Source: Roseimicrobium sp. ORNL1 (GTDB taxonomy: Bacteria > Verrucomicrobiota > Verrucomicrobiia > Verrucomicrobiales > Verrucomicrobiaceae). Taken from it: a DNA stretch of 64,000 nt. The notes under the pieces were generated by a model. It saw nothing but the letters and a program-made list of their open reading frames with translations. It was not told where the DNA came from and searched no databases. Both the position numbers and the translations under genes were made by a program. The stretch is taken from positions 6,944,001-7,008,000 of the forward strand of contig NZ_CP049143.1 of assembly GCF_011044495.1 (NCBI RefSeq), read 5' to 3'. This document shows positions 4,386 through 29,533 of the stretch, in pieces (within the stretch, counting starts at the first letter, position 1; every line of letters starts with the position of its first letter).

Positions 4386-4432
4386 AATCGTTCGGGCGAT
4401 CTGCGAATACACCTCCGCGAAGAACCTATTCA

Positions 4433-9526: not shown

Positions 9527-10548
9527 TGCCTGCCCTCCGATGCGAGGTTCTTCTCAATCTCCGCGGCCAATCGCTCATACGTGAACTCCCCATCCAACCG
9601 GACACCAGCCACCATCCCAGCTGCCGAGGACCCCAGGACAAACGCGGGCACCGTGGTGATGCCCGCCTTCACCGCATCCGCTTGCTCCTTGAGCACCGCG
9701 TTGGCAGACTGCGCATCGGTGAAGCATGCGCCGAACCTTGCGGAATCCAGCTGCGCCTCCTGACTCATCGTCGTGACCGCTTCTGCAGACAACGAACCAC
9801 CGGCAGCGAAGAGCCTTTCGCGCATCGCCCAAAATTTCCCCTGCGCATGCGCACACCATGCCGCCCGTGCCAGCGAGTCTTCCGGCGAGATACTGGAAGA
9901 TGGCAACACACGCGTGATGAGCCGGAGTTTACCCGTGTCGATGTAGGCAGACTTCAGCCGGGGCAGCACCTCCGACTGAAAACGCGCACATGCCGGAGAG
10001 CGAAGGTCCGTGAACTCCACGAGTGTCAGTGGCGCCTTCTCGGAACCCAACGAGGGACCTCCCGCAACATGCAAGGTAACAAAGGGTGACGCAGGTGCAG
10101 CATCGACGGGTGATCCTGCAACAGCGCCTCCATCCGAGGGCGTGCGAGATACCAACTCTGGGGTCACCAGATGCATGTCCAGCGGGACATCAGCACCGGC
10201 CTTCACCCATGCCTCTCCCTCGCGCGCGAACCAGATGCGCAGCCTGGGAGGCTGGCCACTCTGGCGCAGCAGTTCCCCATCGATGGACGGCGCCTGCGCG
10301 GAATCCCCCAGGCGCACCGAGTACTCTCCCTTGCTCACGTGCACCTTCAACTCTGAAGACAACCAGAGAGCACGCGTCTCATTCATCACGGCAAAACGAA
10401 AACGCCCCACCCCTTCAAAGGGCACCCCATGAATGCTCAGGCGGCCCTGGTAGTTGATCATCTCTGCGTACCCACGCTCCAGTCCCAGCCCGAGGAACCA
10501 CACCAGAGCGCACACCAGGAATCTGAGTGAAAAGGGCATGGGCATCAT
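9523..10548 (-). CDS. DsbA-like thioredoxin-fold protein with degenerate active site
   Basis: A 341-residue exported protein, using ATG 10548 (open frame further upstream has no signal peptide). After the signal peptide comes a small beta domain (INYQGRLSIHGVPFEGVG, residues 31-135) common in secreted Verrucomicrobia and Planctomycetes proteins. The thioredoxin/DsbA domain begins at about 165 (GSEKAPLTLVEFTDL). The position of the usual CxxC is SPAC (184-187): the first, nucleophilic cysteine is Ser and only the second Cys is kept. The cis-Pro loop is TTVPAFVL. Loss of the nucleophile argues against classical disulfide exchange; a single-Cys or binding function is likely. It is first in the redox operon. 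Confidence 0.8.
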   Translation of the reverse strand: MMPMPFSLRFLVCALVWFLGLGLERGYAEMINYQGRLSIHGVPFEGVGRFRFAVMNETRALWLSSELKVHVSKGEYSVRLGDSAQAPSIDGELLRQSGQPPRLRIWFAREGEAWVKAGADVPLDMHLVTPELVSRTPSDGGAVAGSPVDAAPASPFVTLHVAGGPSLGSEKAPLTLVEFTDLRSPACARFQSEVLPRLKSAYIDTGKLRLITRVLPSSSISPEDSLARAAWCAHAQGKFWAMRERLFAAGGSLSAEAVTTMSQEAQLDSARFGACFTDAQSANAVLKEQADAVKAGITTVPAFVLGSSAAGMVAGVRLDGEFTYERLAAEIEKNLASEGRQ

Positions 10549-10802
10549 GGAAGCAGGCACACCTGCCACAGGTAGGCAATACAGCGGCGGATGCCGCGAC
10601 ATACTACAACAATGTTGCCCGGCCAGTGAATTGCGTCGGCCCCTTCTCCCACCTTCACACAAACCCGAGTCCTGCCCCTTTGTTTTTTTCCAAACTCGCT
10701 TATGCTGGGCGCTCGACCACGCCCCGGCGAGGCCGCACTACGACACCCCTCCTACTCATGCACACCAACGCGATTTCATGGATGTCACCCAGCCGGCGCA
10801 TC

Positions 10803-11828
10803 ATGATGTCCGCGATAGAGAGGCCTGTCATCCCCCTCGCCTTCACCATGCTTGCCTTGTTGGGCTGCCTGCAGCTTCACGCGCAGGAGTTGGACAAGAC
10901 CGCTTCCGTGGTCACCGAAGCGCCGGCCTTCGCCAGGGATCTGGCCATCGGCTCCATGTATCAGTTGGGCGGTGAAATCACCGTGGTGCTGGTGAACACC
11001 AGGACCCATGAGCGCACCATGCTGCGAGGCAGCGAACCCTCCTTCGACGGCATGCGTGTGAAGCAGGCCTCTATCAGAGACACCCGTAGGGAGTCCTCTG
11101 TTGTTGTGGAGATGGGTGGCAAGGATGCGACCTTGTATTACGACGCCTCCTATTTCAAACAGATGGGTTCCTCGCGGACTGGCAAACAGGAGGTGTATGT
11201 GAACTCCAACCTGGACATCGAACCCGGTGACCCCACCGCCATTGTCGAGAGCGTCCATGGCGTCGGCATGGTCATGACGGAATCCGGACCGGCCCCGGCC
11301 CCAGCCCCTATCCCTCTCCCAGAGGGGTATGTGAATTCCAACCTCGACATCGAACCCGGCGACCCCACCGCCATCGTCGAGAGCGTCCATGGCGTCGGCG
11401 TTGGCATGACCTCAGACTCCGATCCCGCCCCAGCCCCCACCCCGCTCCGGGAGGGTTATGTGAACTCCAACCTCGATATCGAACCCGGCGACCCCACCGC
11501 CATCGTCGAGAGCGTCCACGGCGTCGGCGTTGGCATGACCTCAGACTCCGATCCCGCCCCCGCCCCAGCCCCGCTCCCGGAGGGTTATGTGAACTCCAAC
11601 CCCGATATCGAACCCGGCGACCCCACCGCCATCGTCGAGAGCGTCCACGGCGTCGGCAGCGTCATGACTTTTGACTCTAGTCCACCCGCGGCCCCCACTT
11701 CGCCCGCCGGACCCGGCGCTGCCCCGCCAACTCCACCGAAGCGCAAGATCACCGCTCCCCAACCTTCTCCTCCCGCGCCCGCACCCGCGCCTGCATCACC
11801 TCCCGCGCCAGGGGAAGTGGAGCTTTAG
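10803..11828 (+). CDS. exported protein with four tandem 43-44-residue repeats
   Basis: About 341 residues. The N-terminus (MMSAIERP then a hydrophobic run ALLGC) is a signal peptide, possibly with a lipobox at LLGC. In-frame ATGs also exist at 10758 and 10782, and no strong ribosome site decides between them. A unique region (about 40-125) precedes four copies of a unit starting YVNSN and containing DIEPGDPTAIVES and VHGVG, separated by Pro/Ala linkers. The C-terminus is a Pro-rich tail (PPAAPTSPAGPG and similar). No domain is recognised. The repeat architecture suggests a cell-surface or binding protein. It lies just upstream of the tRNA-Arg fragment and stands divergent from the redox operon. 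Confidence 0.65.
   Translation: MMSAIERPVIPLAFTMLALLGCLQLHAQELDKTASVVTEAPAFARDLAIGSMYQLGGEITVVLVNTRTHERTMLRGSEPSFDGMRVKQASIRDTRRESSVVVEMGGKDATLYYDASYFKQMGSSRTGKQEVYVNSNLDIEPGDPTAIVESVHGVGMVMTESGPAPAPAPIPLPEGYVNSNLDIEPGDPTAIVESVHGVGVGMTSDSDPAPAPTPLREGYVNSNLDIEPGDPTAIVESVHGVGVGMTSDSDPAPAPAPLPEGYVNSNPDIEPGDPTAIVESVHGVGSVMTFDSSPPAAPTSPAGPGAAPPTPPKRKITAPQPSPPAPAPAPASPPAPGEVEL
11196..11695 (+). repeat. four tandem repeats inside the exported protein gene
   Basis: Units begin at 11196, 11328, 11457 and 11586, with spacings of 132, 129 and 129 bp. Each unit encodes the same 43-44-residue motif and nucleotide identity is high between copies 2, 3 and 4, so the copies are recent. The last copy is shortened at its Pro-rich linker. 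Confidence 0.85.
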
Positions 11829-11934
11829 GACGCAGCAGAAGTTCGCACGGAAGGAAACACCCGCTCCGCGCTTGCAGCGCACCCATGCGTGCTACTTTAC
11901 GCCTCGACTCCCGCAGGCGACAAGACGCGAACAT

Positions 11935-11972
11935 GCACCCGTAGCTCGGTGGATAGAGCAGCGGGCTCCGAA
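11935..11972 (+). pseudogene. 5' half of a tRNA-Arg(CCG) gene
   Basis: The sequence matches a tRNA from the acceptor strand through the D-arm and the 5' anticodon stem to the loop CTCCGAA, whose anticodon is CCG. It then diverges, so the 3' anticodon stem, T-arm and acceptor are absent. It shares the pattern of the 5' half of tRNA-Arg(TCT) at 19102 and 29382 except for the anticodon stem-loop and one D-loop base (G in place of A). It marks the left edge of island A. Confidence 0.75.
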
Positions 11973-12482
11973 TGCCTTCAGGATGAGTTTATTGGCATTG
12001 CAAACATGCACCACGTTGCATGTGGACTTGTTCAACCACTATACTCCCTGCGTGGAGTGGCGCTGTTTTCAGTGAACCTGACGTCGGCTGTATAATCTGT
12101 ATAAATTTTTGCGAAGAAAGCGCAGACCGTTTTAGGTCTATATAACACCCGACATCAAAGCTTAGGCGCGAAGCTCAAGCAGGCGATATTCCATGCGGCC
12201 AGCGATCTGATCAATCTTGAGAACTGCAGTTCCACCGTGGTGCATCTCACCTACGGGGAGGCAAATGAGCCAATAGCGGGGTGCGCCAACCAGAAAGTCA
12301 TCGCTGGACCGGCTCGCGAAGTCCAGACACGAACAAAATCATTGGCATTCTGGAGAAAAATTTGAGGAAATGCATCATTGACATTTTTGCGACACCATAA
12401 ATAAATCTGTTTTAACAGGTCCATTATTGGGTCTATTAAACTCTACAAAGCCACGAGTTACCTTGGCGCGCACACCAATTTT
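11973..12482. other. non-coding remnant at the left of island A
   Basis: 510 bp with no gene I can support. It holds a short inverted repeat around 12004-12022 and an AT-rich stretch from about 12100. A reading frame of about 65 codons without a start codon is open at roughly 12160-12360 and could be a gene remnant. The AT-rich area from 12380 upstream of the VOC gene could include its promoter, but I see no clear -35/-10 pair. Confidence 0.4.
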
Positions 12483-12977
12483 ATGGAAACCACTCTCCTT
12501 CGCTTTGGAATGCTCTCCTTATCTTTGATGGGGGCTTTGGCGTTCTCCAGTTGCTCCATCAGTAAAACTTCGCCAACGGACCTGACACTCCCCGGACTGC
12601 GACGACTGGATCACTTCGCAGTGCACGTTACCGATCTGCCTAAATCTGCAGAATTTTATCAGCGCGTCTTCGGCTTCGACATCATCAACAAGTGGAAAAC
12701 TACCTGGATGGTGGGCAACGACCGCATGCGCGTGGGACTTTTTCTGCGGCCTAAAGCCACCAAGGTCGCAGATCCAGACAACTCGATTCTGATCGAGCAT
12801 GTGGCTTTCCTCACCGACAAACACAACTTCGATCGCTGCCTCGCAGTGCTCGATCAACTCGGCATTCAGCACGAGGCGCCGGACGACAGCGGCATCGCCA
12901 AGAGTGTGTTTTTTAACGACCCGGACGGGCACTCCTTGGAAATCACTTATTACTACGAGCACATCCCAACTCTCTAA
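12483..12977 (+). CDS. VOC-superfamily lipoprotein (glyoxalase-like)
   Basis: A 164-residue protein. Residues 1-24 are a signal peptide ending in LAFSSC, an acceptable lipobox, so it is probably attached to a membrane outside the cytoplasm. The rest is one vicinal-oxygen-chelate module pair: RRLDHFAVHVTDLPKSAEFY at 41-60, an IEHVAFL strand near 105 and PDGHSLEITYYYEH near the end, with His and Glu at the usual metal positions. It is 20 bp upstream of the LodA-like gene in the same direction and is probably in its operon. A metal-dependent lyase, isomerase or binding role is possible; the lipoprotein form of a VOC protein is unusual. Confidence 0.75.
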   Translation: METTLLRFGMLSLSLMGALAFSSCSISKTSPTDLTLPGLRRLDHFAVHVTDLPKSAEFYQRVFGFDIINKWKTTWMVGNDRMRVGLFLRPKATKVADPDNSILIEHVAFLTDKHNFDRCLAVLDQLGIQHEAPDDSGIAKSVFFNDPDGHSLEITYYYEHIPTL

Positions 12978-12997
12978 ACTGCCACCTAGACAGCACT

Positions 12998-15900
12998 ATG
13001 GCTACCAAACACACGAAGAAAGCCACCGCTCCTGCAGGCAAACTGGCGAAGAACGAAATTGCCTATGCTAAAATATTCCCACCGATAGGGATCGCCCGAG
13101 TGGGTAAGAGTACTGAGGAGGAAGATTGCTTCATCGGACCGGAAGACCCTGCTGACCTGGCGCATCGTAAAGAGGGTTTTTCATTCCGAGATGGCCGGGG
13201 TGAGCTGAAGAGACAAGCATCGCGTTTTCGCATTTTCGGGTTTACCAAGGATGGCCACCTTGTGCAGGAAATCACCAGCAAAGAGGCGCGGATTACCTGG
13301 ACCGTACAGCTAGCCAACAAAAAGGCGGGCTGGTTTCAATTTGATGGAGCCCGGAATGCCATCGCCTCTATCACCGGCGACCGCGAGCTAACGGAGGGAG
13401 GGGCTTCCACGCTGCGCAATAGTCACCTTCCGGGTGGCTTCGCCCACAAACCGAATGGACCGCTCGGGAAAAAATATGAGCCTGATTCCACCCGTGCCAA
13501 GCAGGGCTTGGACATTATTCCCCCGCCGGTGACCATTGAGGGCGAAAATAAGCGGACCAAACGGCCCAAGGCGGGCGAGAAGGAACAAAACTATGAATTC
13601 CGCGGCCTCTTTAAGAACATCAAAGAAGTCTACCTCGGCGAACTGCGCACGGACAAAGCCGGAAGGCTGATGGTCCTGGGCGGGCATGGCATTTCCGACG
13701 CGATCGATGAGAAAGGCAACAGTATTAAGGATAAGCGCTGGATTCAAAACTATGCCAATAATCTGGACTGGTGCGACGACATCGCGGACGGCTATGTGAA
13801 AGCCGAGGTGAGTCTCCTGGGCGGAAAAAAGGTGGAAGTGAAGGGAGACGCGTGGGTGGCAACCGCCCCACCAGATTTCGCGCCCGACGTGACGAACATC
13901 GTGACGTTGCGGGATGTTCTGGAGGACGCGGTCTACGCGACAGGTCGCAATGCGATGACCGCTGAAATGCCCATGGTCCCCCTGCCGAATCAGACGGTTT
14001 TCGATCGAGACATTCGCCCAATTCTCAAACGGATGGCTGACTATCGCTGGGTCAGCGAGATCGCACTCCGCGGTCACGGTTTTGGCAAGCCGGGAGATTT
14101 TGACAAACAAATGGACGATCTTGGCGATCCCGACAATGACCGCATCGCGCCTGTGCGACAGCATATCGTGGATCTGATTCGAAAGCCGATCTATTTCGTG
14201 CCTGGCGCCGTCGTGGACGGCATTCCCGCCGATCCCAAGCAGACCGACAAGCTGGCTGCTTCGGAGGAGATCATTGCGCAGGCCACGGCGAAATTCATGC
14301 CTCCCCTCTCTGGAGACGAAGACGACCGCACGGTAGGAAAACCACTCACCTGGTTGACGGTGACGCACCTGCAGTACGCGCGCCTGCAGCAGTGGGCGAA
14401 GGGCAATTTCACCAAGAGGGAGCCCCGGGGCCGCATCGAACCACACACGGAAATTACCTGGACTGCCTGGGATGCTGCTTGCGGCGGGGCATTCTATCCA
14501 GGCATGGAGATCACCTCCATCGTTCGCCACTACGGCCTCTTTGAGACCAAGGATGCGTTTCGCCTCCGTGGCCAGTTGATGGAGCCGGGCGATCTCACCA
14601 AACACATGGCCTGTCCGTGGCAGTCAGACTTTTACGAGTGCCAGGTCACGTGGTGGCCAGCGCAACGCCCCGACGATGTGCTGACAGAGGATGAGTTGGC
14701 AGAAATCACAGCCAGCTTCCAGGAGGAGACCACGGGAAGCAACACGGATGAGCTGGAACGTCTGCTGATGGCGAGGCGGAGGTGGGACCGCGGTATCGAT
14801 TGGCGTCGGCCCGACGGTGTCTTTTTGAATGACCGAGTGTATGGCGATTTCAAGCCTGGGCGGTTCAAGACCGTCGCGGAATACGCGGCCAACCGTGCGA
14901 CATCATTCGCAAGTCTTTTATTGCGCGGAGCAGTGGATCTTGAGGTGCAATATCCAGAGAGGCAACCCTCTCCGTGGCGGGTCCAGTTCCTCTCCCAGGA
15001 GCGGCTGGATGAATATTCAGGACGCTATTTCCACGCAGGAGTGCCCTCTCCGGAGGAGATGTGCCTAGGGCGCCATTTGTCCCCCAAAGAGGAGAAAGAA
15101 CTGCAGAAACTGCTCGACGGCATCGATCCCTATCGCCTCAAAAACGAATGGGACGCGTTTCTGCGCGCAAAGCCGGAAGCCGCCAGCAAGGTAGTCGAGC
15201 TTTATGCCGAGGTGTGCAGTCGTTCGCTCCGCGAGCAGATTCATGCGTGCTTCATCCATCATCCCAATGCCGGCGCAAAGCTCGAGAAGTTCCTGGAGGT
15301 GATCAAAGCCGCCGGTGGCGATGTGGAGAAGATTGAGGGCGACCACCCGGAGCAATTTGAAGCAGATGACGACGTCTGCAATAGGCTGCGGCTAGCCGAC
15401 CTGCTTAGGCTCGTGCGTGATCGTTTCTATTTGCTGAACCGACGGTTTGCTGGCGACCATGGGATGATCGAAGAGTGGCACACCTTGGGCATCGTGGCGG
15501 AAAAGGTGGTGACGGTGAAACCTGACGATGGGGAGAAGAAGGAGATCCCCGTGCAGGTCGAAGTGGGGCGGAACAAATTCGATGGCCTGACGTCCCGCGA
15601 TTATTTCCATCTCTTCATGAACATCGAGAAGCATTCCGGATTTCCGGAATACGCCAAGACCCTGGCGCAAAGCTTCCTCGATGAAGCCCAAACCTTTGTG
15701 GATCAAAAGGGCCTTGAAGACTCAAGCCATCCCGAATCGTTCGTTGAATATTCAGTAACGAATTTTCACGCCAAGCTGGAACAGATTTATGAGATTCTAA
15801 GGCAGGGGGCTGCGGGTGCCCGCCCATGGGTCACCACCCAGACGCGCGCATCGCAAATCCGGCGAATCATAGGCAACTCTGCTTTCAATCAGACGGATGG

Positions 15901-17254
15901 CGCCTGGCTGCGCTTCGCGGCCAATGCTGGCCCTGCGGACGAGATCAAAGGACTGCTTTTTGAGGTGTGGAGCGACGAAACCGGGAATGGCGACCCCGCC
16001 AAGCATCATGGCAACCTGTATACAGCGTTCGTGAATGAACTGGGATTCTTCCCCCCGGAAATCGGCACGCGTGCGTACGCGGACGCGCCGGAGATAGACA
16101 CAAGCTCTTTCGCTGGTGCTGTCGTACAACTGGCCATCTCCCAGCATTCCGAGGAGTTCTTCCCGGAGATTCTGGGCATGACGCTTTTCCTGGAATGGGA
16201 AGTGTTGAGTTTGGTGCCTATCGTGAAGCGGCTCGAATATTTGGGGATAAACAGTCACTTCTATCGCATGCATGTCGCTATCGACAATGCCACGGAAGGT
16301 CATGGAGCCGCGGCCAAACGCGCCGTGCAACTGTACCTGGATCATGTTTTCAATGAAGGGGGGGTAGCGGCGCAGCAGGCGCACTGGAGGCGGGTCTGGC
16401 GTGGGTTCGTAGCTTTTGCCCTGAGCGGAGGTAACAAGAACGGAGGCATCGCAGAGGAAACACTCCTCCGAACTTACCCAGGCAATGCCTACGATCAGGT
16501 CGTTGAGCTCATCACGAGAAAGAAACCCTACGGGAATCTGAACCACTCGCGGAAGCACCTCGGCCAATTCCGAATCAACGACCTTTTCGACGATCCTGAC
16601 ATTTTCCTTGAGGAACTCGCCCAGTCCAAATGGATCAAGCCGGGTGACCCGGCGGGCAGCCTGCTCCTCTCGCACTTAACCTCATTTCAAGGCCCCATGT
16701 ATAAGATCTTTGATGAGGCCGATCTCCAAAAGTGGCGCAACTGGATCATCTGGCTTGGCGGCCAGTCCGATACAGGTTCCTCGAGGAAATTCGTCACCAA
16801 AGGCGAGGCGATGCTTATCTTGCTGACCGAGCTGCGCGAGCGTGCCATGGCCAGCCATCCCCATTCACGGTACAAACTAGACGTAACCGATATCAAGAAG
16901 AAGCAACCTCCGAAGAAGATGAGCATCCAGGAATTGTTTGCTCATGGCGACCTGACCGTCCTGATGAAGGCCCTAAAAGACCGCGACAATGGCTGGGTGG
17001 TGCCGGGCCAGCCCGATGAAAGCGCGCTGCTCGTCGACATGGCACGCGCGGACCGGCCCATGGGAAAAGCCTTGGATGAACGCTTCCCTGCGGCCGGAAA
17101 TCAAATTGGCCGACGCATCATTCTGGAGTGGATCGACGCCGGTTGCCCGATCCCTGGTGAAGCTCAACCCACTGCAGAGCAGTTGGCAAAAGCGCGCCCT
17201 GAGCGACCTCAGCGGCTGATCGTCCAAGAGTTCGGCCTCGGTGCCGTCCATTGA
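12998..17254 (+). CDS. LodA-like CTQ quinoprotein oxidase fused to a heme-oxygenase-like diiron domain
   Basis: A 1418-residue protein, about twice the length of the marine L-lysine oxidase LodA. Residues 20-650 match LodA/GoxA: PPIGIARVGKS, DGRGELKRQASRFRIFGF, MVLGGHGISD, YANNLDWCDDIADG, CGGAFYPGMEI and ACPWQSDFYEC followed by WWPAQRPDDV. The Cys-Trp pair that forms cysteine tryptophylquinone in LodA corresponds to Cys495 and Trp541. Residues about 960-1130 resemble an iron-containing redox (heme-oxygenase-like) domain: E989, E994, H1003/H1004, E1066/E1068, and the helix H1092-x3-D1096-x5-H1102. Residues about 1200-1390 carry two segments like the PSD1/cytochrome c family (DPAGSLLL, QPDESALL, IILEWIDAGCP) but no CxxCH. 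The LodB-like partner follows after 107 bp. Confidence 0.75.
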   Translation: MATKHTKKATAPAGKLAKNEIAYAKIFPPIGIARVGKSTEEEDCFIGPEDPADLAHRKEGFSFRDGRGELKRQASRFRIFGFTKDGHLVQEITSKEARITWTVQLANKKAGWFQFDGARNAIASITGDRELTEGGASTLRNSHLPGGFAHKPNGPLGKKYEPDSTRAKQGLDIIPPPVTIEGENKRTKRPKAGEKEQNYEFRGLFKNIKEVYLGELRTDKAGRLMVLGGHGISDAIDEKGNSIKDKRWIQNYANNLDWCDDIADGYVKAEVSLLGGKKVEVKGDAWVATAPPDFAPDVTNIVTLRDVLEDAVYATGRNAMTAEMPMVPLPNQTVFDRDIRPILKRMADYRWVSEIALRGHGFGKPGDFDKQMDDLGDPDNDRIAPVRQHIVDLIRKPIYFVPGAVVDGIPADPKQTDKLAASEEIIAQATAKFMPPLSGDEDDRTVGKPLTWLTVTHLQYARLQQWAKGNFTKREPRGRIEPHTEITWTAWDAACGGAFYPGMEITSIVRHYGLFETKDAFRLRGQLMEPGDLTKHMACPWQSDFYECQVTWWPAQRPDDVLTEDELAEITASFQEETTGSNTDELERLLMARRRWDRGIDWRRPDGVFLNDRVYGDFKPGRFKTVAEYAANRATSFASLLLRGAVDLEVQYPERQPSPWRVQFLSQERLDEYSGRYFHAGVPSPEEMCLGRHLSPKEEKELQKLLDGIDPYRLKNEWDAFLRAKPEAASKVVELYAEVCSRSLREQIHACFIHHPNAGAKLEKFLEVIKAAGGDVEKIEGDHPEQFEADDDVCNRLRLADLLRLVRDRFYLLNRRFAGDHGMIEEWHTLGIVAEKVVTVKPDDGEKKEIPVQVEVGRNKFDGLTSRDYFHLFMNIEKHSGFPEYAKTLAQSFLDEAQTFVDQKGLEDSSHPESFVEYSVTNFHAKLEQIYEILRQGAAGARPWVTTQTRASQIRRIIGNSAFNQTDGAWLRFAANAGPADEIKGLLFEVWSDETGNGDPAKHHGNLYTAFVNELGFFPPEIGTRAYADAPEIDTSSFAGAVVQLAISQHSEEFFPEILGMTLFLEWEVLSLVPIVKRLEYLGINSHFYRMHVAIDNATEGHGAAAKRAVQLYLDHVFNEGGVAAQQAHWRRVWRGFVAFALSGGNKNGGIAEETLLRTYPGNAYDQVVELITRKKPYGNLNHSRKHLGQFRINDLFDDPDIFLEELAQSKWIKPGDPAGSLLLSHLTSFQGPMYKIFDEADLQKWRNWIIWLGGQSDTGSSRKFVTKGEAMLILLTELRERAMASHPHSRYKLDVTDIKKKQPPKKMSIQELFAHGDLTVLMKALKDRDNGWVVPGQPDESALLVDMARADRPMGKALDERFPAAGNQIGRRIILEWIDAGCPIPGEAQPTAEQLAKARPERPQRLIVQEFGLGAVH

Positions 17255-17361
17255 GCCGACCATCGCTGGAGCCTGACATGCACAGCCTCACCCACCCCCG
17301 CCCCTCAAACATCAAGCGCACCTCGCCGCAGCCCGGCACGAGAATTCAGCGGTAACCGGCG

Positions 17362-18426
17362 ATGGTAGACTTTGATGCGGTCATCGTGGGCGGTGGCGTG
17401 GCTGGGGCGTCAGCAGCCCTGGCCATCGCCCGCGCTGGCGGACGAGTGGTGGTATTGGAGGCCTGCGTGGCAATGGGGCGCCGCGTCGGCGAAACGCTCG
17501 ATCCTGCGGCAAAACCGCTCTTGGAGTCCCTCGGAGTTTGGGACGCCATCGCAGACATGCACCACATTCCTTGCCCTGGCACCGTGTCTCTCTGGGGGGC
17601 ACCGCGTCCGGCGGAGAGGGATTTCATTTTTAACCCGTACGGCCAGGCATGGCAGCTTGACCGCGCAAGCTTCGATGAAATGCTCCTTTCACAAGCGGAG
17701 CAGAGCGGCATCCCCATCTGGCGCGGACAAAGCGGGGAGCATTTCGAGCGGGTCGGTGCCGGCTGGGAGGTGAAGCTAACGGATGAGACGGTGCGTGCTT
17801 CCTGGCTGATCGATGCCACAGGGCGCCGCTCCAGCGTGGCGCGCCGACTCGGCTTCAAGCGGGAAACACTTGATCAATTGGTCGCTATTCATTGCTCCGC
17901 GACTACCGTCGGCGACGAAGATCGGGATGGCCGCCTCTTCCTGGAGGCTCTCCCCTACGGGTGGTGCTATTCCGTGCTAGTCCCAGGCGGCCGGCGAGTA
18001 TTCTCGCTGCAGACGGATGCCGATCTCCTGCCCACGCAGGAATGGCGGGAGGTTGCCTGGATCGTACGATGCCTGCGCGAATCAGCCCTGCTCTCTCGCC
18101 ATATCAGGCAGCAGCGCTATACTTTTTCGGACCCTCCGCAACTGACCTCGGCTCACTCCGGCCGATTGGAACGCTTTGCTGGTGATGGTTGGCTCGCGGT
18201 GGGAGATGCTGCCATGTCCTTCGATCCTCTGTCCGGCCAAGGTATTCTAAAGGCGGTGAAGTCAGGACTGCAGGCTGCGGAGGTGGTACTTCACAATAGC
18301 CAGGCAAGTCGCGAACAGTTCGAAGCCTATCACGAACTTATGTGGCAAGACTTTGTCGGCAGCCGCAAGCGCTACTACGCAAGCGAGCAGCGGTGGCGTG
18401 CGAATTCTTTTTGGTCTCGTCGTTGA
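17362..18426 (+). CDS. LodB-like FAD-dependent oxidoreductase
   Basis: A 354-residue flavoprotein of the tryptophan-halogenase/geranylgeranyl-reductase group. The FAD dinucleotide motif VIVGGGVAGASAALAIARAG is at residues 8-27, VGETLDPAAKPLLES follows at about 47, and SGQGILKAVKSGLQAA near 290 is the second FAD contact. LodB is needed to build the CTQ cofactor in LodA. The position directly behind the LodA-like gene supports the same role here, probably oxidising the Trp precursor. The C-terminus ends against the decayed integrase. Family assignment is confident; the CTQ role is inferred from context. Confidence 0.8.
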   Translation: MVDFDAVIVGGGVAGASAALAIARAGGRVVVLEACVAMGRRVGETLDPAAKPLLESLGVWDAIADMHHIPCPGTVSLWGAPRPAERDFIFNPYGQAWQLDRASFDEMLLSQAEQSGIPIWRGQSGEHFERVGAGWEVKLTDETVRASWLIDATGRRSSVARRLGFKRETLDQLVAIHCSATTVGDEDRDGRLFLEALPYGWCYSVLVPGGRRVFSLQTDADLLPTQEWREVAWIVRCLRESALLSRHIRQQRYTFSDPPQLTSAHSGRLERFAGDGWLAVGDAAMSFDPLSGQGILKAVKSGLQAAEVVLHNSQASREQFEAYHELMWQDFVGSRKRYYASEQRWRANSFWSRR

Positions 18427-18427
18427 T

Positions 18428-18980
18428 TCACGATGCGGGAGCCGACCCGCTCAGCCTGAAAGAATGTTTGCGCCAGGTCTTTAAGCCCATAGGAGCGCCA
18501 AAACTTTGCATTCACCCCGCCAAGCACTTTGCTTGACGTGAATAGCCAATGTCACCACACCCTTACCGACTGGCGAATGCCGGCAAGAACACCACCATAA
18601 GCGGCCTGCCCATTCGACGCATTCTTCGGCGGTGATTTTTCCCAAATGCAGCCCAAGCTTTCCTAAAGGCAGCGATGATTTCGCCCAGTGTTTCCGGGTG
18701 CTTTTTTCAACCTCAGAGCGTTGGCAATCTGCAGTTCCCGGATTGCGATGGCGTCAGTACCGGTCATGTGAAGGTCCAAGGTGATTTCCTTGGCCAACTC
18801 GTTCTGGTGTCCGACGTCTCCAAGAGCTGGGGAAGCTCGACCGTGGCAATTTCCCACACCTTGGTCCTGAGCGTTCACCGTTTCCTTGCCTCCGATGGAA
18901 ACGCGGCCATAGTAAGTGCCCGAAATATGGCGGTACAACCCTTGAACTTTGGACGGCGTCCAGGTCTTTGCAGCTCTCAT
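18428..18980 (-). pseudogene. decayed tyrosine recombinase (integrase) of island A
   Basis: On the minus strand from about 18980 a frame reads TWTPSKVQGLYRHISGTYYGRVSIGGKE, the usual N-terminus of integrases in this phylum. It is then interrupted by frameshifts. Neighbouring frames continue TKVWEIATVELPQLLET, EIIAAFRKAWAAFGK and ITAEECVEWAGRLW, typical of the SAM-like core-binding domain. The catalytic domain is missing, because the LodB-like gene begins at 18426. Several frameshifts and the loss of the catalytic half mean it is non-functional. Its position beside the tRNA half at 19102 mirrors the intact integrase of island B. Confidence 0.7.
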
Positions 18981-19101
18981 GGCGCGAAGAGGGGGAAGAC
19001 TGCTTATACGGCTGGATTCAGCCAGCTGTATAATTCTCCGTACAATCGCACGATTTTGAGGGTGTCCAAAGACAATTCCCTCCTTCAAAATCAACGTTAA
19101 A

Positions 19102-19142
19102 GCACCCGTAGCTCAGTGGATAGAGCAGCGGATTTCTAATCC
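19102..19142 (+). repeat. left att copy of island B: 5' half of tRNA-Arg(TCT)
   Basis: 41 bp identical to 29382-29422, which is the 5' half of the intact tRNA-Arg(TCT) gene through the anticodon loop and the first three bases of the 3' anticodon stem. Identity stops at both ends (different base at 19101/29381 and 19143/29423). This fits a duplicated integration core. Confidence 0.9.
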
Positions 19143-19429
19143 CTATAGAGGATTTTACACCTTCATAATCAACGTATTACAACTCAATAATTCGACACTT
19201 TATAGCACAAACCGGCACATAGTGGCACGGAATTTGGCAACAATGGGCAACAGATTTGCCGCGCCAGGTTGCGAATAGATTTCCCGGCCCCGAACCCATT
19301 CATACGGCTTTACTGCTCCACAGTTTTTTATGCTCGTATGCCAGACGAGCAATTCAGCATCGCGGTAGAGCGGAGTGAGTTTTATCGTGCTCCAGTGGTA
19401 GGTCTTTTTATCTCTCGTATGGCGTGAAA
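19143..19429. other. left terminal region of island B
   Basis: 287 bp without a gene. It is AT-rich and holds the two-part motif TGGCAACAATGGGCAACA at 19235-19252. A close relative sits at the right end of the island at 29295, so this is a candidate arm-type integrase-binding site. No terminator or promoter is evident. Confidence 0.5.
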
Positions 19430-22108
19430 CTATTTCTTCCCTGCGCCTTTGCCTTTGCCAATCTTGAGCGCCTTCTCTGCACCCGTGCGCCAGTCCTGCT
19501 CCAGCAGCATTTCGAAGTGCAGTTCCGCGTCCTTCACGGCCAGCGCCAGTTCTCCGGCACGAACCGCTTTCTTCGAGTGCTCCGTCAGCAGCTCAAACAG
19601 ACGCCGCTTCCGTTCTGTATCGCCAGCGCCCGAGAGGTGCTCGCCTTTGGTTTCTAGCAGGGCAAAGCATGCCCTGCCGTCTTCCATCTCCGTGAGACTC
19701 ACCAGAAAGTCAGGATACACCCTGCGGCCCCACCAGCCCTGCACGCCATAGTCTTGGCGCTCCGCGATACGGTGCCACCAGTGCACCGTTTCCTGTCCGT
19801 CGAGATACCAGGCCACATCGCGTTCCAGATTGTTGAAGTGCTTCTGATACACCTCTTCAAAAAGCGCTCGCTCCAGGTCGCCGCCCTGCTTCCGGCGTAG
19901 GATGTGGTCCGTGTCTCCCAGGTCCAGCTCCATGGATTCCGCCAGTTCCCAGTTCAGCTTGGCATCATTGGCGGACACAAGATGGAAGGCGATTTCCCCC
20001 TTCTCCAGTTTAGCGCGAAAAAGAGACTCGCTCGCCTTGAAGACCTGCTCCCGCAGGTCATCCTTCATTTCCTTTACAAGCACCAGCCGATTCGCAAAAA
20101 GCTCACGCTCGCTCCAGGTGCCCTTCCCACGTACCGCTGCCAGCGTGTCGTTCAAGATGCGCACACCTTGCCATGGGTTCGGGATTACGTCCGTGAGCTG
20201 CCTCACGAGGTGCGGGACGTCCAGCCGTGTGTCCACCTCCCAGTCGTCAGGACCATCTTCCAGCACAACGAAAGGGCCATCGCCTGCGCTTCCATCCTTG
20301 TGTGAACCTGTGCCGCTCACATCCACGCGCACAATGACGCGTTGCAGCTTGTGTGCCGCGTCTGGTGTCCACGAGTCCGCTTTCAAAAAATGGAACTGGT
20401 CCCAGTCCAAGTGTCCCAAGATGTCCCGTTCGTAATCAAGCTCTCGGTATCCATCCTTTCCCTTGCCTTCACGATGGAGCACCTGCGGCAAAAAAATAGC
20501 GGCCCCGCGCCACGGCTCCCGGCGCTTCACGACTCGGCGCTTGGTCTTGGTTCCGGCGCTTCCAGTTCCGCCTTCCTTCACCAGGCTAGCAAGGTCCCCC
20601 ATGCCCTCCTCTTCCAGGCCGCGTTTGATGGCACCCACAGATTCCTGCACTACTTGGTCCGCTGTGAAGACCCAGCACTCGTTCAACAACGGTCTGCTTG
20701 TGAGACGCGCCTCCGGCTGTCGCAGCACACGCCCCACCATCTGCGTTAGCGCTGTAGTCGCCTGCGTGTTGGAGAGAACCGCGAGAATGTAAGCAAAGGG
20801 ACAATCCCACCCCTCCTGCAAGGCTGCTTTGGTAATCACGAAGCGAACCGGGCAAAGCGGGTCTAACAAGTCCTCGTCTCCCAGTTCGTCCGTCTCTGCG
20901 GTTTTCAGTCGAATGGAATCCAACTTGGCACCTTGTTTTTCGATAAGGTACTCCCGCACGTCTTCCGCGTGAATGTACAACCCGTCGCGCTGCTCCTTCC
21001 CCGTCCGGTCCACACGCACCAGCATCATGGGACGAATATAGCGCCCGTCACTGTGCTGTAGTGTGATGGCCTCACCCTTCAAAATCTCAAGCTGTGCGCA
21101 GGCATCGTCCAACGCATGTTTCCATCCCGCATTGGCTGCGTTCACAGCATTAATGGGCAGCTTTACCATCTCCGCCGCCTTCAGCTCTGCACCCGGCACG
21201 TTCACGAGAACATTGCTCATGTGCACCCGCGTGTTTGGCGTGGCCGTCAGTTCCAAGATGAATCGCGGATTGAAACCGCACAGCGTGTCGAGTTGTATCA
21301 GACTGTAAGCCTTGTGCCCCTCATCGAGAATAATGATGGGGCGCACCAGCCGCAGGACATTACCAAGACTGTGCCGCACGCTCACTTGTCCCTGCATCAT
21401 GCCAGCGTCGGCCAAATCGTTTTCATCGAGGTTGCGCACATCCGCCAGTAGCGCCGCGTTTACTTTCGGGTCGTCCACCTCCGGAAAAAAGCTGCCAAAA
21501 TTCCCCGTGTCACGGAACATCCGCAGCGTGTCCTTGGTCTGCCGTCCTGCTGCTTGCAACATGAGCAGCATCACACAGAGGCAGTTCTCCGTGTCCTGCC
21601 TGCTGAAACTGTCTTCCCTCTCCAGCACCTTCACCCGGCCACCGCTGGCACGCTCCAGCATTTGCCGATAGGGATGCTCGCGATTTGCAAGCGCCTTCCA
21701 CGTCTGCCGATAAATGGCGTCTGAAGGTACAATCCAAAGGAGAAAGCCTGTCTGTCGGCCAAAAAAATCGCCGTTGATGCGCTCCACCGCAGCGGCAGCC
21801 AGAAGTGTTTTCCCGCCGCCCGTTGGGACTTTTAGGCAGAGATTGGGAATGCCTCTTCCCAGGCCATCATTGCGGGCAATGTAGGGAATCGCCACTTTGT
21901 TTCCCTCCGTGTCCTTCGTTCGCGGAAGTGCACCCGCCAAATTCAGTTCGTCCCAGGCCTGCTGGCACACATCCACAGCGGGCGCATTTTTGCCCTTGCT
22001 GCGAAAAAATTCCGCCATCTCTGCCGCCTCCAGCGTCTTCTCCCGCATCTTTCCGAGAAAGACGTCCAGAGCATCCAGCACCGCAGTTTGATAGCTTTTA
22101 AATTCCAC
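19430..22108 (-). CDS. res: type III restriction endonuclease subunit (Res)
   Basis: An 892-residue protein with superfamily 2 helicase motifs: Walker A in LKVPTGGGKTLLA (residues 92-104), motif II ILDEGH near 267, motif III LTATPN near 288 and motif VI QMVGRVLRQP near 450. The C-terminal part has VYPDFLVSL and LLETKGEH, which fit a PD-(D/E)xK nuclease. It would cut DNA in complex with the methyltransferase subunit using ATP-driven movement along DNA. The Mod gene is upstream on the same strand, separated by two small genes. The order (Mod, then Res downstream) is usual for type III systems. All key motifs look intact. Confidence 0.9.
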   Translation of the reverse strand: MEFKSYQTAVLDALDVFLGKMREKTLEAAEMAEFFRSKGKNAPAVDVCQQAWDELNLAGALPRTKDTEGNKVAIPYIARNDGLGRGIPNLCLKVPTGGGKTLLAAAAVERINGDFFGRQTGFLLWIVPSDAIYRQTWKALANREHPYRQMLERASGGRVKVLEREDSFSRQDTENCLCVMLLMLQAAGRQTKDTLRMFRDTGNFGSFFPEVDDPKVNAALLADVRNLDENDLADAGMMQGQVSVRHSLGNVLRLVRPIIILDEGHKAYSLIQLDTLCGFNPRFILELTATPNTRVHMSNVLVNVPGAELKAAEMVKLPINAVNAANAGWKHALDDACAQLEILKGEAITLQHSDGRYIRPMMLVRVDRTGKEQRDGLYIHAEDVREYLIEKQGAKLDSIRLKTAETDELGDEDLLDPLCPVRFVITKAALQEGWDCPFAYILAVLSNTQATTALTQMVGRVLRQPEARLTSRPLLNECWVFTADQVVQESVGAIKRGLEEEGMGDLASLVKEGGTGSAGTKTKRRVVKRREPWRGAAIFLPQVLHREGKGKDGYRELDYERDILGHLDWDQFHFLKADSWTPDAAHKLQRVIVRVDVSGTGSHKDGSAGDGPFVVLEDGPDDWEVDTRLDVPHLVRQLTDVIPNPWQGVRILNDTLAAVRGKGTWSERELFANRLVLVKEMKDDLREQVFKASESLFRAKLEKGEIAFHLVSANDAKLNWELAESMELDLGDTDHILRRKQGGDLERALFEEVYQKHFNNLERDVAWYLDGQETVHWWHRIAERQDYGVQGWWGRRVYPDFLVSLTEMEDGRACFALLETKGEHLSGAGDTERKRRLFELLTEHSKKAVRAGELALAVKDAELHFEMLLEQDWRTGAEKALKIGKGKGAGKK

Positions 22109-22172
22109 AGCGCCGCCAGTCTAGCCAGTGAGTCCCATCCTGCACAAGGAAAGTCCGTTGAATGCACTGCGC

Positions 22173-22421
22173 TCAGGCAGAATCATCGCGTCTTTCCTGC
22201 ATCCTTTGCCATTCCTCCATCATGCGGTCGTACCGCGCCACCAGTTCTGGTGGCCTTGGTTCATCCGTTCCCAAGGTGATAGGCAGCTTCCGCCGTCTCT
22301 TGGGCTTAGAGCTTGGTGGGGCCGCCTCTCGTGATGCTGGCATTGGATGTTCTTCAGGTTCCATCATGGCTCGGCGGGCGGAACTGCCCTCTACTAGAGG
22401 GCAGTTTGTCAAATCACACAC
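22173..22421 (-). CDS. small hypothetical protein between mod and res
   Basis: An 82-residue product with a Pro/Ser and basic middle (PSSKPKRRRKLPITLG) and a charged C-terminal helix (YDRMMEEWQRMQERRDD). I do not recognise it. It lies 64 bp upstream of res on the same strand, so it probably belongs to the restriction-modification operon, perhaps with a structural or regulatory role. Codon usage looks like the neighbours, but a non-coding origin cannot be excluded. Confidence 0.45.
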   Translation of the reverse strand: MCDLTNCPLVEGSSARRAMMEPEEHPMPASREAAPPSSKPKRRRKLPITLGTDEPRPPELVARYDRMMEEWQRMQERRDDSA

Positions 22422-22441
22422 TCGGCCATGAATACCGCCCT

Positions 22442-22669
22442 TTACGACTCACTTTTCGCAGCGAGCACGGCTTCTGCCAGAGACTTGCCACCCAAATCTA
22501 TCTTGCTCCATTCGCTTTCAGGGACGGGGCAACTCGGCGTGGGAGAACCGCGCTTGTTCAAATCGAGCACTACCCAGACTTCCTTGCGTCCACTCACATC
22601 TCTCAGTGAGTAAAAATCAGTTCCTCCTGCATCATTGACGCACGCTCCCAACGGTATCGATTGTTCCAT
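22442..22669 (-). CDS. small hypothetical protein in the R-M operon
   Basis: 75 residues from ATG 22669 (alternative start 22693; the open frame extends into mod but without a convincing start). The text reads like a folded protein: LRDVSGRKEVWVVLDLNK in the middle and a C-terminal helix SLAEAVLAAKSES. No family is recognised. It follows mod at about 60 bp and precedes the other small gene by 20 bp. It could be a subunit or modulator of the restriction system. Confidence 0.5.
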   Translation of the reverse strand: MEQSIPLGACVNDAGGTDFYSLRDVSGRKEVWVVLDLNKRGSPTPSCPVPESEWSKIDLGGKSLAEAVLAAKSES

Positions 22670-22731
22670 AGTCCAGATTGGACGCCCCCACATTTCGATG
22701 CAACCGCTCACGCAAAAAATGAAGACCGGAA

Positions 22732-24546
22732 TTACGCGTTGCCTCGATGAATCGCGTACGGAAGTTGGCAAAACTCAATCCCTGCCGGAGTCAGCACCTT
22801 CTGGCTCATGAACTTTGCCGCCGCGAAAATGAGCGCCCGTTTCCCCGGTGCCTTGCCATGTTGGATGGCATCCACGAGCGCCGTGTCTAGAGCGGCTTCA
22901 TTGCTACGCAGCCATGCCGCATCGGGTTTGTAGTGCAAGTGCACGCGGTAGAGGTCTGTCTCCCCAATGAAACCGTCCTTCGCGGCTTTCGCGGGCGAGT
23001 GTTCCAGAGTACGCCCCGTGGCCGTGTGAAACACATAACGTGCCAGCGCTGCGTAATCCGGAAGTGTGCCGCTCCCTCCAAGCATGGCGTCCAGGTTCAT
23101 CTCCTGCCCCAATTCGCAAAAAGTGAAGCTGCCGCCCACTCCTTCGGCCTTTTGCTTTACCTTCTTTTCTCCGGTCACTACCAACTCCCCGTCCTCGACT
23201 TTGATACTAACATCGTCATAGCTGGCTCCCTCCAGCTTCCTAATGCTCTCCGCCTTCTCCACCAGGTCCTGTCCCTTCCGAAGCTTGGTCCATGTCAATG
23301 ATTCCTTCAGGAGTTCTGTGCGCTGTGTGCCAGTGAATGGATACCCCTGAATTACGCGGCGCACCCTTTCGGCAGTGATGTCCCGCGCGTAATCCTCCGT
23401 CTCAACCAAGATAAATCGACGGCGGCCCTTATCTTTCTTGTTAAGCGAAAGGACCGCGTGCGCCGTTGTTCCGCTTCCTGCAAATGAATCAAGCACTAGG
23501 GCATCTTCCTTCTTGATGAGACCAAGAATTTTCTCAATGAGTTGAACCGGCTTTGGATTATCGAAGACACTTGAGCCGAAAATCTGCTTCACTGCCTCGC
23601 TTCCGTCGTCAGAGGAGCCAGCCTCCGTATAGTTCCAGACATCAACTGGAACAAGCTGCTCAGCCTCGGAAAGAAACAATTTCAATCTTGGAAACTCGGC
23701 CATACCATCCGCCCCCCACCAGAGTCGCTTTTCCGACACGTGCCTTGCGTGCTCTTCAGGGCTGTATTTCCAAGCATGCGTTGGATGCTCGACCTTCTCA
23801 CCGTTCAAAGGCCTATTAATTGCATACACGAGATTCTTCCGTTGCGCCTTCGTTGCGGGATTCACATAGGAGGAAGTTATCCATGGCCCGCGCTCATCAT
23901 TGTCCGGATTTGCATAGCCGGAATCAGACTTCTCGCTTCGAGCTTCTTTGACTACATCGAGTGTCGAAGACTTCCTGTAGACCAACACGTGGTCCTTTTG
24001 CGAGTAGAACATTCTTGCATTGTTGCTTCGCGTATAACGCTTAATCCACTCGATAGAAGCTAGAAAGTTGGAGTCGCCAAAAATTTCATCCAAGATGCAT
24101 CGCAAGCGATGCACTTCATTGTCGTCTATTGAAATGAAGATTACGCCGTTTTCGCAGAGTAATTCTCGCAACAACTGAAGGCGCGGCCACATCATGCACA
24201 ACCATTTGTCGTGACGTTCCATGTCCTCTTTGTCAACAGGATTGGCTTCCTTGGAAAGCCAAGCTTTCATGAGCGGACTGCGCACCGCGTCATTGTAGCA
24301 CCAGCCTTCGTTCCCTGTATTGTAAGGCGGGTCAATGAAAATGCAGTCCACTTTTCCCGCATGCGTCGGCAGCAGTGCTTTAAGCGCGTGCAGATTATCC
24401 CCGTGAATGATGAGATTGTCTTCCAAAGATGGCTTTTGTCCCTTCGCCAGGCAGCTCTCTTTCTCATCAACCACCAGCTCACGAAAAGGCACAGTGAGGT
24501 GATGGCTATGCACGAAGGTCTTACCTTTGAAGTCGAGAGAGGGCAT
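22732..24546 (-). CDS. mod: type III DNA methyltransferase (Mod)
   Basis: A 604-residue beta-class amino-methyltransferase. Motif IV is IFIDPPYNTG at residues 69-78, and the SAM motif SFAGSGTTAHAV is near residue 355, i.e. after the catalytic motif as expected for this class. Between them is a region (MMWPRLQLLRELLCENGVIFISIDDNE) typical of Mod proteins. The protein modifies adenine at N6 and, as in known type III enzymes, would select the target sequence for both subunits; the variable middle (about 180-300) is the probable recognition part. It is upstream of two small genes and res. Confidence 0.92.
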   Translation of the reverse strand: MPSLDFKGKTFVHSHHLTVPFRELVVDEKESCLAKGQKPSLEDNLIIHGDNLHALKALLPTHAGKVDCIFIDPPYNTGNEGWCYNDAVRSPLMKAWLSKEANPVDKEDMERHDKWLCMMWPRLQLLRELLCENGVIFISIDDNEVHRLRCILDEIFGDSNFLASIEWIKRYTRSNNARMFYSQKDHVLVYRKSSTLDVVKEARSEKSDSGYANPDNDERGPWITSSYVNPATKAQRKNLVYAINRPLNGEKVEHPTHAWKYSPEEHARHVSEKRLWWGADGMAEFPRLKLFLSEAEQLVPVDVWNYTEAGSSDDGSEAVKQIFGSSVFDNPKPVQLIEKILGLIKKEDALVLDSFAGSGTTAHAVLSLNKKDKGRRRFILVETEDYARDITAERVRRVIQGYPFTGTQRTELLKESLTWTKLRKGQDLVEKAESIRKLEGASYDDVSIKVEDGELVVTGEKKVKQKAEGVGGSFTFCELGQEMNLDAMLGGSGTLPDYAALARYVFHTATGRTLEHSPAKAAKDGFIGETDLYRVHLHYKPDAAWLRSNEAALDTALVDAIQHGKAPGKRALIFAAAKFMSQKVLTPAGIEFCQLPYAIHRGNA

Positions 24547-24672
24547 GGGAGCGGAAATGGGCTGCCGCCATGCTGAATCGGTTCAGGCCTGCAAGCAAAG
24601 AAAATTGCCCTTTCCCGCCGAATTTTCGCAGGTTGCACTGGACGATTAAGCAGCGAATGATTCTTCTATGGC

Positions 24673-25218: not shown

Positions 25219-25272
25219 CTGTATGGTGGGTGACCGTCGGCAGTGAACACAGTACCAGAGGCCCGAACGAGT

Positions 25273-26376: not shown

Positions 26377-26405
26377 CCCTTCCTCCCCTCAGCCCGCGTT
26401 TGTTC

Positions 26406-26609: not shown

Positions 26610-26689
26610 GAGAGGGATTTTGCCCTCTAGCGCCTCACTCGAATACTTGCTTATCTAGACCTCGTTTTCCAAGAATTCAACGCCGCCGC

Positions 26690-27646: not shown

Positions 27647-27711
27647 GTGACCAACTACGCACGACTGTCAATAGGCAGCACGATTGCGCTGGGCCGCTTT
27701 CATGGTAGGTT

Positions 27712-27978: not shown

Positions 27979-27980
27979 GG

Positions 27981-29273
27981 CTATGCGGCAGCCGTAAAGG
28001 GAATGACCTTGCCCGCTGCGGCCTGCTCCGTGGGCTGCACCGCAAACCACTTCTCTGCGTCCTTGGCGTGGCAAAGCTCGCGGTAGTGCTTGCTTTGCAC
28101 CGCAGCACTGTGGCCAGCTTCATAGGCCACCTTGCCCGCTTCTCCCACCATGGCCACGCGATAGCTGCACCAGGAATGCCGTAGAACGTCCGGTGTCCAT
28201 TCGATACCTGCCGTTTTGCAGGCCTCGTCTCTCCTGTCGCGCAATTGAGTAGGAGTAAGGCCCACCACAAACCCGGTAGCATCCTGCGGCCTGTAACGGT
28301 CTAGGAATGCTTTCAGCGCGGGCAGCACTGGCACCAGCCGCCGTGAGCCGACTTTTGTAATAGCCGCGCCAAGCTCGACGTCCCCCATCTCCAGCCGCAC
28401 ATTCTCCCACCGCAGGCGCTCCGCCTCGCGTGGCCGCACCCCCGCCAGTCCACCCAAGAGCAGCCACCAGAGGAAACGATGGTCGCCCCGTTCCGCGCCT
28501 TTCGTCTCCGCAGCCCCCAGCAGCTTCGTCCATTGCTCAGGCGTGAGGATGCGAGGTGTACCCCATCGCACCTTGGGCGCTTCCGTGCGCTCCAGAACCG
28601 TGTTCTCCGCCACCCATCCGCGCCGCCGTGCAAAGCTCCAGAGTACGCTCAGATTGCGCCGCATAAGCGCCACCGTCGCAGGCGCGTGGCCTTGCGAAAA
28701 CAGCCAGCTTTCAATCTCTGCCCCTGTGATGCTACACAGCGGGCGCGTGGCAAACGCATTCCCAAACGCTCCCAAGCGCGATTGCAGGTCCCGCAGGTAA
28801 TCCACCGATGAACCGTTGGCCTTCTTCGCTGCCAGCAGTTCCTCCACCGCCAGAGGCACAAGCTGGCTGGCTTGCTCTGTCTTGTGGCGTCCGGCCACCT
28901 CCCGCACTGCATCCAGCAGGGACATGCCGGACACGGCCAGTAGGTCCCGCGCCGTCTTCAGCTCATGAACCGCATTGGCAAGGGCAGGGTATCCCATGGC
29001 CTCCGCTTCGCGCCGTGCCGCAATTGCGTCCTCCAGCTCCGCGCCGTTCAGGTGCTCGATGCGTCGTCCCAGGTTCTCGCGCTTGGTGTTGCACTGTTCC
29101 GCGAAGGTGCTGGCCTGCTTGAAGTCATCGAAGAAGCGCCGAACCCGTTTCCCGGCCTCCCGGCACTCCACCATCCACTCATAACGGGGATGCTGTGCCC
29201 GCTTTGGTTCAATGGCCCCCTGAACCCTCTTGCGATAGGAGAACCTGCGGCTACTTTCCCGTTCGTTCTTCAT
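27981..29273 (-). CDS. tyrosine recombinase (island B integrase)
   Basis: A 430-residue phage-type integrase. The core-binding domain covers about 130-225 (LVPLAVEELLAAKKANGSSVDYLRDL). In the catalytic domain I see Arg280 in LAGVRPREAERLRW, Lys307 in ITKVGSRRLVPV, His366 in VLRHSWCSY, His388 in AGHSA and the nucleophile Tyr397 in KHYREL. The usual HxxR Arg is not obvious after His366 (HSWC), a variation also seen in integrases of this phylum. It reads inward, away from the tRNA at 29382, and would carry out integration at the tRNA-Arg core. The gene looks intact. Confidence 0.9.
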   Translation of the reverse strand: MKNERESSRRFSYRKRVQGAIEPKRAQHPRYEWMVECREAGKRVRRFFDDFKQASTFAEQCNTKRENLGRRIEHLNGAELEDAIAARREAEAMGYPALANAVHELKTARDLLAVSGMSLLDAVREVAGRHKTEQASQLVPLAVEELLAAKKANGSSVDYLRDLQSRLGAFGNAFATRPLCSITGAEIESWLFSQGHAPATVALMRRNLSVLWSFARRRGWVAENTVLERTEAPKVRWGTPRILTPEQWTKLLGAAETKGAERGDHRFLWWLLLGGLAGVRPREAERLRWENVRLEMGDVELGAAITKVGSRRLVPVLPALKAFLDRYRPQDATGFVVGLTPTQLRDRRDEACKTAGIEWTPDVLRHSWCSYRVAMVGEAGKVAYEAGHSAAVQSKHYRELCHAKDAEKWFAVQPTEQAAAGKVIPFTAAA

Positions 29274-29294
29274 GGTGCATGCATATTACCAAAC

Positions 29295-29317: not shown

Positions 29318-29381
29318 TTTCTTGCGTTGCCGTTTGCGCCTTGTTTCAACGTATGCAATTAGCACAGTGTGAATTGAATAT

Positions 29382-29454
29382 GCACCCGTAGCTCAGTGGA
29401 TAGAGCAGCGGATTTCTAATCCGTTGGTCGCAGGTTCGAATCCTGCCGGGTGCG
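29382..29454 (+). tRNA. tRNA-Arg(TCT)
   Basis: A complete 73-nt cloverleaf: acceptor GCACCCG/CGGGTGC, D-arm GCTC/GAGC, anticodon stem GCGGA/TCCGT with a G-T top pair, loop TTTCTAA giving anticodon TCT (Arg, AGA), and T-arm GCAGG/CCTGC with loop TTCGAAT. The discriminator is G, and CCA is not encoded. Its first 41 nt are repeated at 19102. The 5' flank is island DNA, so its promoter must be carried by the island. Confidence 0.95.
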
Positions 29455-29533
29455 CATTTATTTACCGGGCAACCTGACCAAGGGGCATGAGGAAAAGGTT
29501 GACCAAGGTGGGCCGATGTAGAAAATCCGGGCC

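Follow-up and report, generated by a model that had tools for sequence, protein, structure and literature searches.

A single gene in the window, by which we mean the whole 64,000-nucleotide stretch of Roseimicrobium sp. ORNL1 DNA analyzed here, encodes a LodA-type quinoprotein oxidase joined to a heme-oxygenase-like dimetal oxidase (HDO) module. The first ~560 residues corresponded to a LodA/GoxA-type oxidase with C548 and W553, and the last ~560 to a DtpC-like HDO with the full set of three histidines and three carboxylates and a duplicated tail. The fusion enzyme is real, intact and conserved, and its kind had already been noted in 2015. We give a probability of about 0.4 to the proposal that it is bifunctional, with the quinone oxidase and the dimetal module acting in series and the latter most likely removing or using H2O2 or species made from H2O2. 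The fusion gene, its parts and its neighbors were located as follows.

12483..12977, + strand: VOC/glyoxalase-family gene, a possible operon member, ending 20 bases upstream of the fusion gene
12998..17254, + strand: fusion gene, open for 1418 codons, for a 1418-aa LodA-like cysteine tryptophylquinone (CTQ) oxidase plus DtpC-like HDO module
13076..13858, + strand: LodA_N domain, residues 27-287 (Pfam, 8.5e-55)
14333..14677, + strand: LodA_C domain, residues 446-560 (Pfam, 2.5e-21)
14639..14656, + strand: codons Cys548 to Trp553, the likely CTQ pair (alignment to LodA C516/W581)
15575..17251, + strand: C-terminal unit, residues 860-1418, with homology to DtpC and to actinobacterial proteins that stand alone
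15881..16399, + strand: Haem_oxygenas_2 (HDO) domain, residues 962-1134, holding E994, H1004, E1066, H1092, D1096 and H1102 (Pfam, 2.1e-17)
16550..17173, + strand: tail module present twice, at approximately residues 1185-1256 and 1300-1392 (hhalign)
17362..18426, + strand: LodB/GoxB/QhpG-like flavoprotein, a probable cofactor maturase (GoxB 4.6e-75, LodB 6.8e-68, QhpG 1.2e-49)

LodA_N, LodA_C and Haem_oxygenas_2 all exceeded their curated Pfam cut-offs in the 1418-aa open reading frame (ORF), the last with a score of 63.9 bits against a cut-off of 28.9. The first-pass annotation had proposed a LodA-like oxidase and a heme-oxygenase-like diiron domain on one chain and had made this depend on a diiron-family match around residues 960-1130; a significant match was found at that place, and the proposed architecture was upheld. 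A sequencing artifact can be dismissed as the source of the fusion, because a 1413-aa protein of Rhizobium altiplani matched the fusion protein nearly end to end (about 43% identity over residues 14-1418). The same annotation had taken the fusion to be undescribed, which proved incorrect: Table 3 of PMC4417212 contains five LodA-like proteins with pfam14518, including those of Burkholderia sp. BT03 (1409 aa) and Rhizobium sp. STM6155 (1413 aa) and three others. By the counts given in that source, 28 LodA-like proteins carried extra domains, made up of 21 with catalase (pfam00199), 5 with pfam14518 and 2 with von Willebrand (vWA) domains, and its authors in 2015 called for experiments on the relevance of these domains. 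Compared by the table entries, the window protein resembled the LodA plus pfam14518 proteins in having both domain families on one chain and was close in length to two of them. The pfam14518 domain is N-terminal according to the wording of PMC4417212, whereas both the window protein and its 1413-aa homologue from R. altiplani have it C-terminally. Among the matches listed in open-access PubMed Central, this was the sole paper found to name the fusion and no test of its function was found; no paper in open-access PubMed Central contained both "DtpC" and "LodA." The present analysis adds the residue corrections, the connection to DtpC and the segment bounded by tRNA copies.

The fusion protein belongs to the LodA family of CTQ quinoproteins, from which both the cofactor and oxidase activity were predicted. 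It resembled LodA and GoxA in having the LodA_N and LodA_C domains, an aligned Cys/Trp pair and an adjoining maturase-like flavoprotein, but differed from them in having scores far below the NCBIfam equivalog cut-offs (249 of 750 bits for LodA and 177 of 600 bits for GoxA) and in the separation of its Cys and Trp by just five residues. Because these scores fell so far under both cut-offs, neither lysine nor glycine should be presumed to be the substrate. The claim that a LodB-like flavoprotein follows the fusion gene was borne out by the GoxB, LodB and QhpG matches at 17362-18426, each of which was under its respective NCBIfam equivalog cut-off, and this flavoprotein is probably the cofactor maturase.

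LodA C516 and W581 form the quinone of LodA, as described in PMC4417212. A phmmer alignment to solved LodA (3weu) placed C548 of the window protein on C516 and W553 on W581, the stretch containing W581 being weak by itself (5.5 bits). D544, C548 and W553 were kept in all eight aligned LodA-like proteins, while W552 was a Trp in 4/8. The cofactor pair is thus likely to be Cys548/Trp553, with a cross-link predicted from this alignment. The pair named in the first-pass annotation, Cys495 and Trp541, was shown by homology to be misassigned and was rejected: position 495 was a Cys in one of the eight LodA-like proteins, while in 6/7 of the others the preceding position was a Cys, and Trp541 was the W of a "CPWQ" motif that aligned with LodA W509 rather than W581. 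A five-residue spacing from Cys to Trp, much shorter than that of LodA, was shared by the window protein and relatives L001, L019 and L009. A weak Pfam match (0.008, below the cut-off) to the gamma family of quinohemoprotein amine dehydrogenase, another CTQ protein, was seen at the Cys548/Trp553 region. A model of the LodA part (residues 1-865), built from two sequences only, had a mean pLDDT of 31.

The C-terminal module was assigned to the heme-oxygenase-like dimetal oxidase type, with a metal pair and O2 activation predicted. Haem_oxygenas_2 matched 7/7 members of the aligned set of relatives, and a profile of these seven matched three distinct SznF sequences with E values of 0.011, 0.012 and 0.014; among the other profile matches in the PDB were RohS (0.0027) and HrmI (0.1). 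Replacement of E215, H225, E281, H311, D315 or H318 abolishes SznF activity (PMC11705231). Counted along the 6m9r profile alignment, these six essential residues fell on E994, H1004, E1066, H1092, D1096 and H1102 of the window protein, all of which were invariant in the seven sequences. This set of three His and three carboxylate residues is likely to provide the metal ligands, and E1057, which was equally invariant (7/7), might be an extra ligand. Five metal residues had previously been proposed, of which H1092, D1096 and H1102 stood; E989 and E1068 were not conserved among the seven relatives and were dropped, and E994, H1004 and E1066 had been overlooked.

Residues 850-1418 were modeled from five sequences (mean pLDDT, 67; pTM, 0.49), and the model would place them in the seven-helix heme-oxygenase fold. 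By VIA, the closest solved structure was HrmI, with a Z score of 20.6 over 274 aligned residues at 4.0 Å, followed by RohS (20.3), SznF (18.6), FlcD (16.4), CADD (14.9), PqqC (13.3) and TenA (about 13); lower scores were obtained with BesC (12.8), PolF (11.9) and true heme oxygenase (about 11). Foldseek placed the same families topmost, with a best E value of 1.3e-3 and none under 0.001. These structure searches bear little on the tail past residue about 1155. The window module resembled the HDO N-oxygenases SznF, HrmI and RohS in fold and in the alignment of the six SznF ligands, but it matched their sequences at the profile level only, and the partner domain of SznF is a cupin rather than a LodA-type oxidase. 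The two copies of the tail module, whose segment borders were picked by eye, aligned to each other with an hhalign probability of 97.7, compared to 0.1 to 8.5 in five column-shuffled controls. An origin of these repeats from a heme-less cytochrome-like protein, considered for a resemblance, was not adopted, as there was no C-x-x-C-H motif and no cytochrome family in Pfam. At the extreme C terminus, residues 1413-1418 read G-x-G-x-V-H in four sequences (the window protein, L001, L002 and L003), and that of L019 was G-x-x-x-H-like, so that the C-terminal likeness extends to stand-alone proteins.

Acinetobacter DtpC was the closest experimentally studied relative found. An ORF in an Acinetobacter baumannii record (L048), read from an ATG at 2743, encoded 469 aa and carried E143, H153 and H232, and the gene after it scored 1188.8 bits as catalase HPII (cut-off, 1102). 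This ORF was taken to be DtpC because of the numbering of these three residues and the adjoining catalase. In a single comparison it matched the window module at 8e-24, with 26% identity over 321 positions extending into the tail, and E143, H153 and H232 aligned with E994, H1004 and H1092. DtpC limits H2O2 in dried Acinetobacter cells, needs the residues matching these three and is encoded by a gene co-transcribed with the catalase gene katE (KatE); it protects drying cells and gives no protection from acute H2O2 (PMC13232832). The window module is like DtpC in consisting of an HDO domain and a tail module with the equivalents of E143, H153 and H232. Unlike DtpC, which stands alone beside a catalase gene, it is fused to an oxidase, and no catalase gene was found beside the fusion operon among the neighboring window ORFs scanned with Pfam.

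A pattern-based scan of an 84,980-species collection yielded four relatives among 13 candidate stretches. One was full length (R. altiplani), and the other three, from a Mycobacterium and two Acidimicrobiaceae metagenome-assembled genomes (MAGs), had just the C-terminal half, one of them being cut by a contig end. Residues ~860-1418 are a unit that is also found as a stand-alone actinobacterial protein. In the plasmid search, 63 of 72,556 records matched, 14 of them from Acinetobacter, and no record covered 80% of the query at a single site; the best match, from Paraburkholderia caribensis (79% coverage), was a 1136-aa fusion with an identical domain order. The full query matched 7/384 whole genomes of the window's class, with a whole-length match only in the window's own genome. 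The C-terminal half matched 2/387 genomes in the phylum, 2/337 in the class of Rhizobium and 11/345 in the class of Mycobacterium, each count including the genome taken as the center. None of 10 related ORFs scanned carried both domains (LodA only in two, HDO only in seven and no family in one). Sequence L018 (E value, 1.1e-4) had no Pfam family and was dropped as a relative. On viral contigs, 34 and 21 candidate stretches were examined and none proved to be a relative, and two records labeled Acinetobacter phage matched the HDO part only.

Several of these records held features of their own. In an A. baumannii record (L047:1798-4011, +), a 737-aa relative of the HDO module appeared by eye to have a second HDO and tail module as its N-terminal part. 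A MauE-like gene (Pfam, 9.3e-12; L003:5166-5759, -) lay just upstream of the stand-alone HDO gene of an Acidimicrobiaceae MAG, on the opposite strand; a methylamine-dehydrogenase-like neighbor suspected by eye in the same record was unsupported, the ORF ending in a lectin-like part. A LodA-like ORF from the window's class (L012:1-3045, +) had about 350 residues before LodA_N with no Pfam family at 0.01 and is possibly another LodA fusion.

In the proposed scheme, the flavoprotein neighbor would mature the quinone cofactor, the quinone domain would oxidatively deaminate a primary amine or amino acid with release of H2O2, and the dimetal module would follow in series, acting on whatever leaves the first site and most likely removing or using H2O2 or a derived species. 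H2O2 removal or use was our first choice because the kinship to DtpC and the partners of LodA proteins (catalase-fold, HDO and ferritin-like) point to peroxide, iron or oxygen chemistry. In fungi, ferritin-like genes are found close to lodA-like ones, and one stand-alone relative of the module (L020) was found near ferritin-like and YsnF/AvaK genes. LodA-family oxidases release H2O2, and several are antimicrobial proteins, as stated in PMC4417212. Because H2O2 is a LodA product and a catalase domain is found on other LodA proteins, peroxide removal or use may be the task of the diiron module, and the comparison with these catalase domains would support this by analogy. A putative second oxygen-dependent step after amine oxidation is possible. 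That a single polypeptide both makes H2O2 and disposes of or spends it, through a DtpC-type dimetal module that has no heme, is in our estimation less likely than not. If H2O2 is what the module consumes, this would be the first defined substrate for the DtpC branch, and HDOs would be the non-heme counterpart of the catalase-fold domains on other LodA oxidases.

The lack of protection by DtpC from acute H2O2 and its 26% identity argue against a role for the module in H2O2 removal or use, as do the nearest solved folds, which are amine N-oxygenases, and the biosynthetic-looking surroundings of the Paraburkholderia fusion (two opine-dehydrogenase-type genes, a methyltransferase and a PhyH-type dioxygenase) and of two stand-alone relatives (Streptomyces and, judged by eye, L047). 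A pairing of an oxidase with an imine-coupling partner, on the pattern of VioA/VioB, was also considered. The Z scores and PDB profile matches of HrmI, RohS and SznF, together with the Paraburkholderia neighborhood, would favor an HDO module that is an O2-dependent tailoring enzyme, such as an amine N-oxygenase, acting on the same amine or on the imine or aldehyde that the quinone domain produces, so that a small molecule is made and H2O2 is a by-product; the lysine N6-oxygenase HrmI acts on a side-chain amine, as summarized in PMC13108848. However, fold similarity is no proof of function, DtpC is nearer in sequence, has the tail module and has an oxidative-stress phenotype, and the window operon has no clear biosynthetic neighbor except the VOC gene. 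This tailoring function is a tentative alternative, and an amine N-oxygenase or biosynthetic role ranks just behind H2O2 removal or use as nearly as likely. It is quite improbable that the C-terminal module binds iron or manganese for storage, structure or protein interaction and has no turnover of its own. Iron sequestration is one option that the authors of the DtpC study leave open (PMC13232832), and the HDO domain is followed by long tail modules of an uncharacterized kind; against this, the six ligands of the catalytic HDO type were invariant, although storage would need the same ligands. As the fusion joins a LodA-type oxidase to a DtpC-like module, the DtpC-like substrate, whether peroxide, an amine or an aldehyde, becomes a direct biochemical question. 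PADLOC, with which a defense role was looked for, gave no match for the fusion protein.

The operon was located in a segment bounded by partial copies of a tRNA gene, next to an island with an integrase.

11929..11978, + strand: partial, diverged tRNA-Arg copy matching the 5' part (84% over 50 bases)
19102..19142, + strand: partial tRNA-Arg copy, identical to the first 41 bases (5' part) of the intact tRNA
19430-24546, - strand: restriction enzyme and methyltransferase of a type III pair (PADLOC, REase_III 1081.9 bits and MTase_III 704.9 bits)
27981..29273, - strand: phage-type integrase adjoining tRNA-Arg
29382..29455, + strand: intact tRNA-Arg, anticodon TCT (ARAGORN)

ARAGORN called no tRNA at 19102-19142 or 11929-11978. 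The segment from 19102 to 29381 holds the type III restriction-modification pair and the integrase, and that from 11929 to 19101 is filled by the VOC, LodA/HDO and LodB-like genes. The G+C content of 1.5-kb bins was 0.52-0.61 in 11929-19101 compared to 0.58-0.63 in the flanks. No integrase was detected among the four ORFs scanned with Pfam within the operon segment. The earlier suggestion of a mobile island agreed with the partial tRNA-Arg copies that flank this segment and with the integrase-bearing island alongside. The arrangement fits two adjacent insertions at tRNA-Arg, the operon having arrived with the older one if the inferred order of events is correct. At 10527-11828 (+), an ORF carried four repeats with a spacing of 129-132 bases (43 aa) and no Pfam family above the cut-off. 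A 959-aa ORF at 4172-7051 (+) combined TylF and Methyltransf_24, two methyltransferases on one chain.
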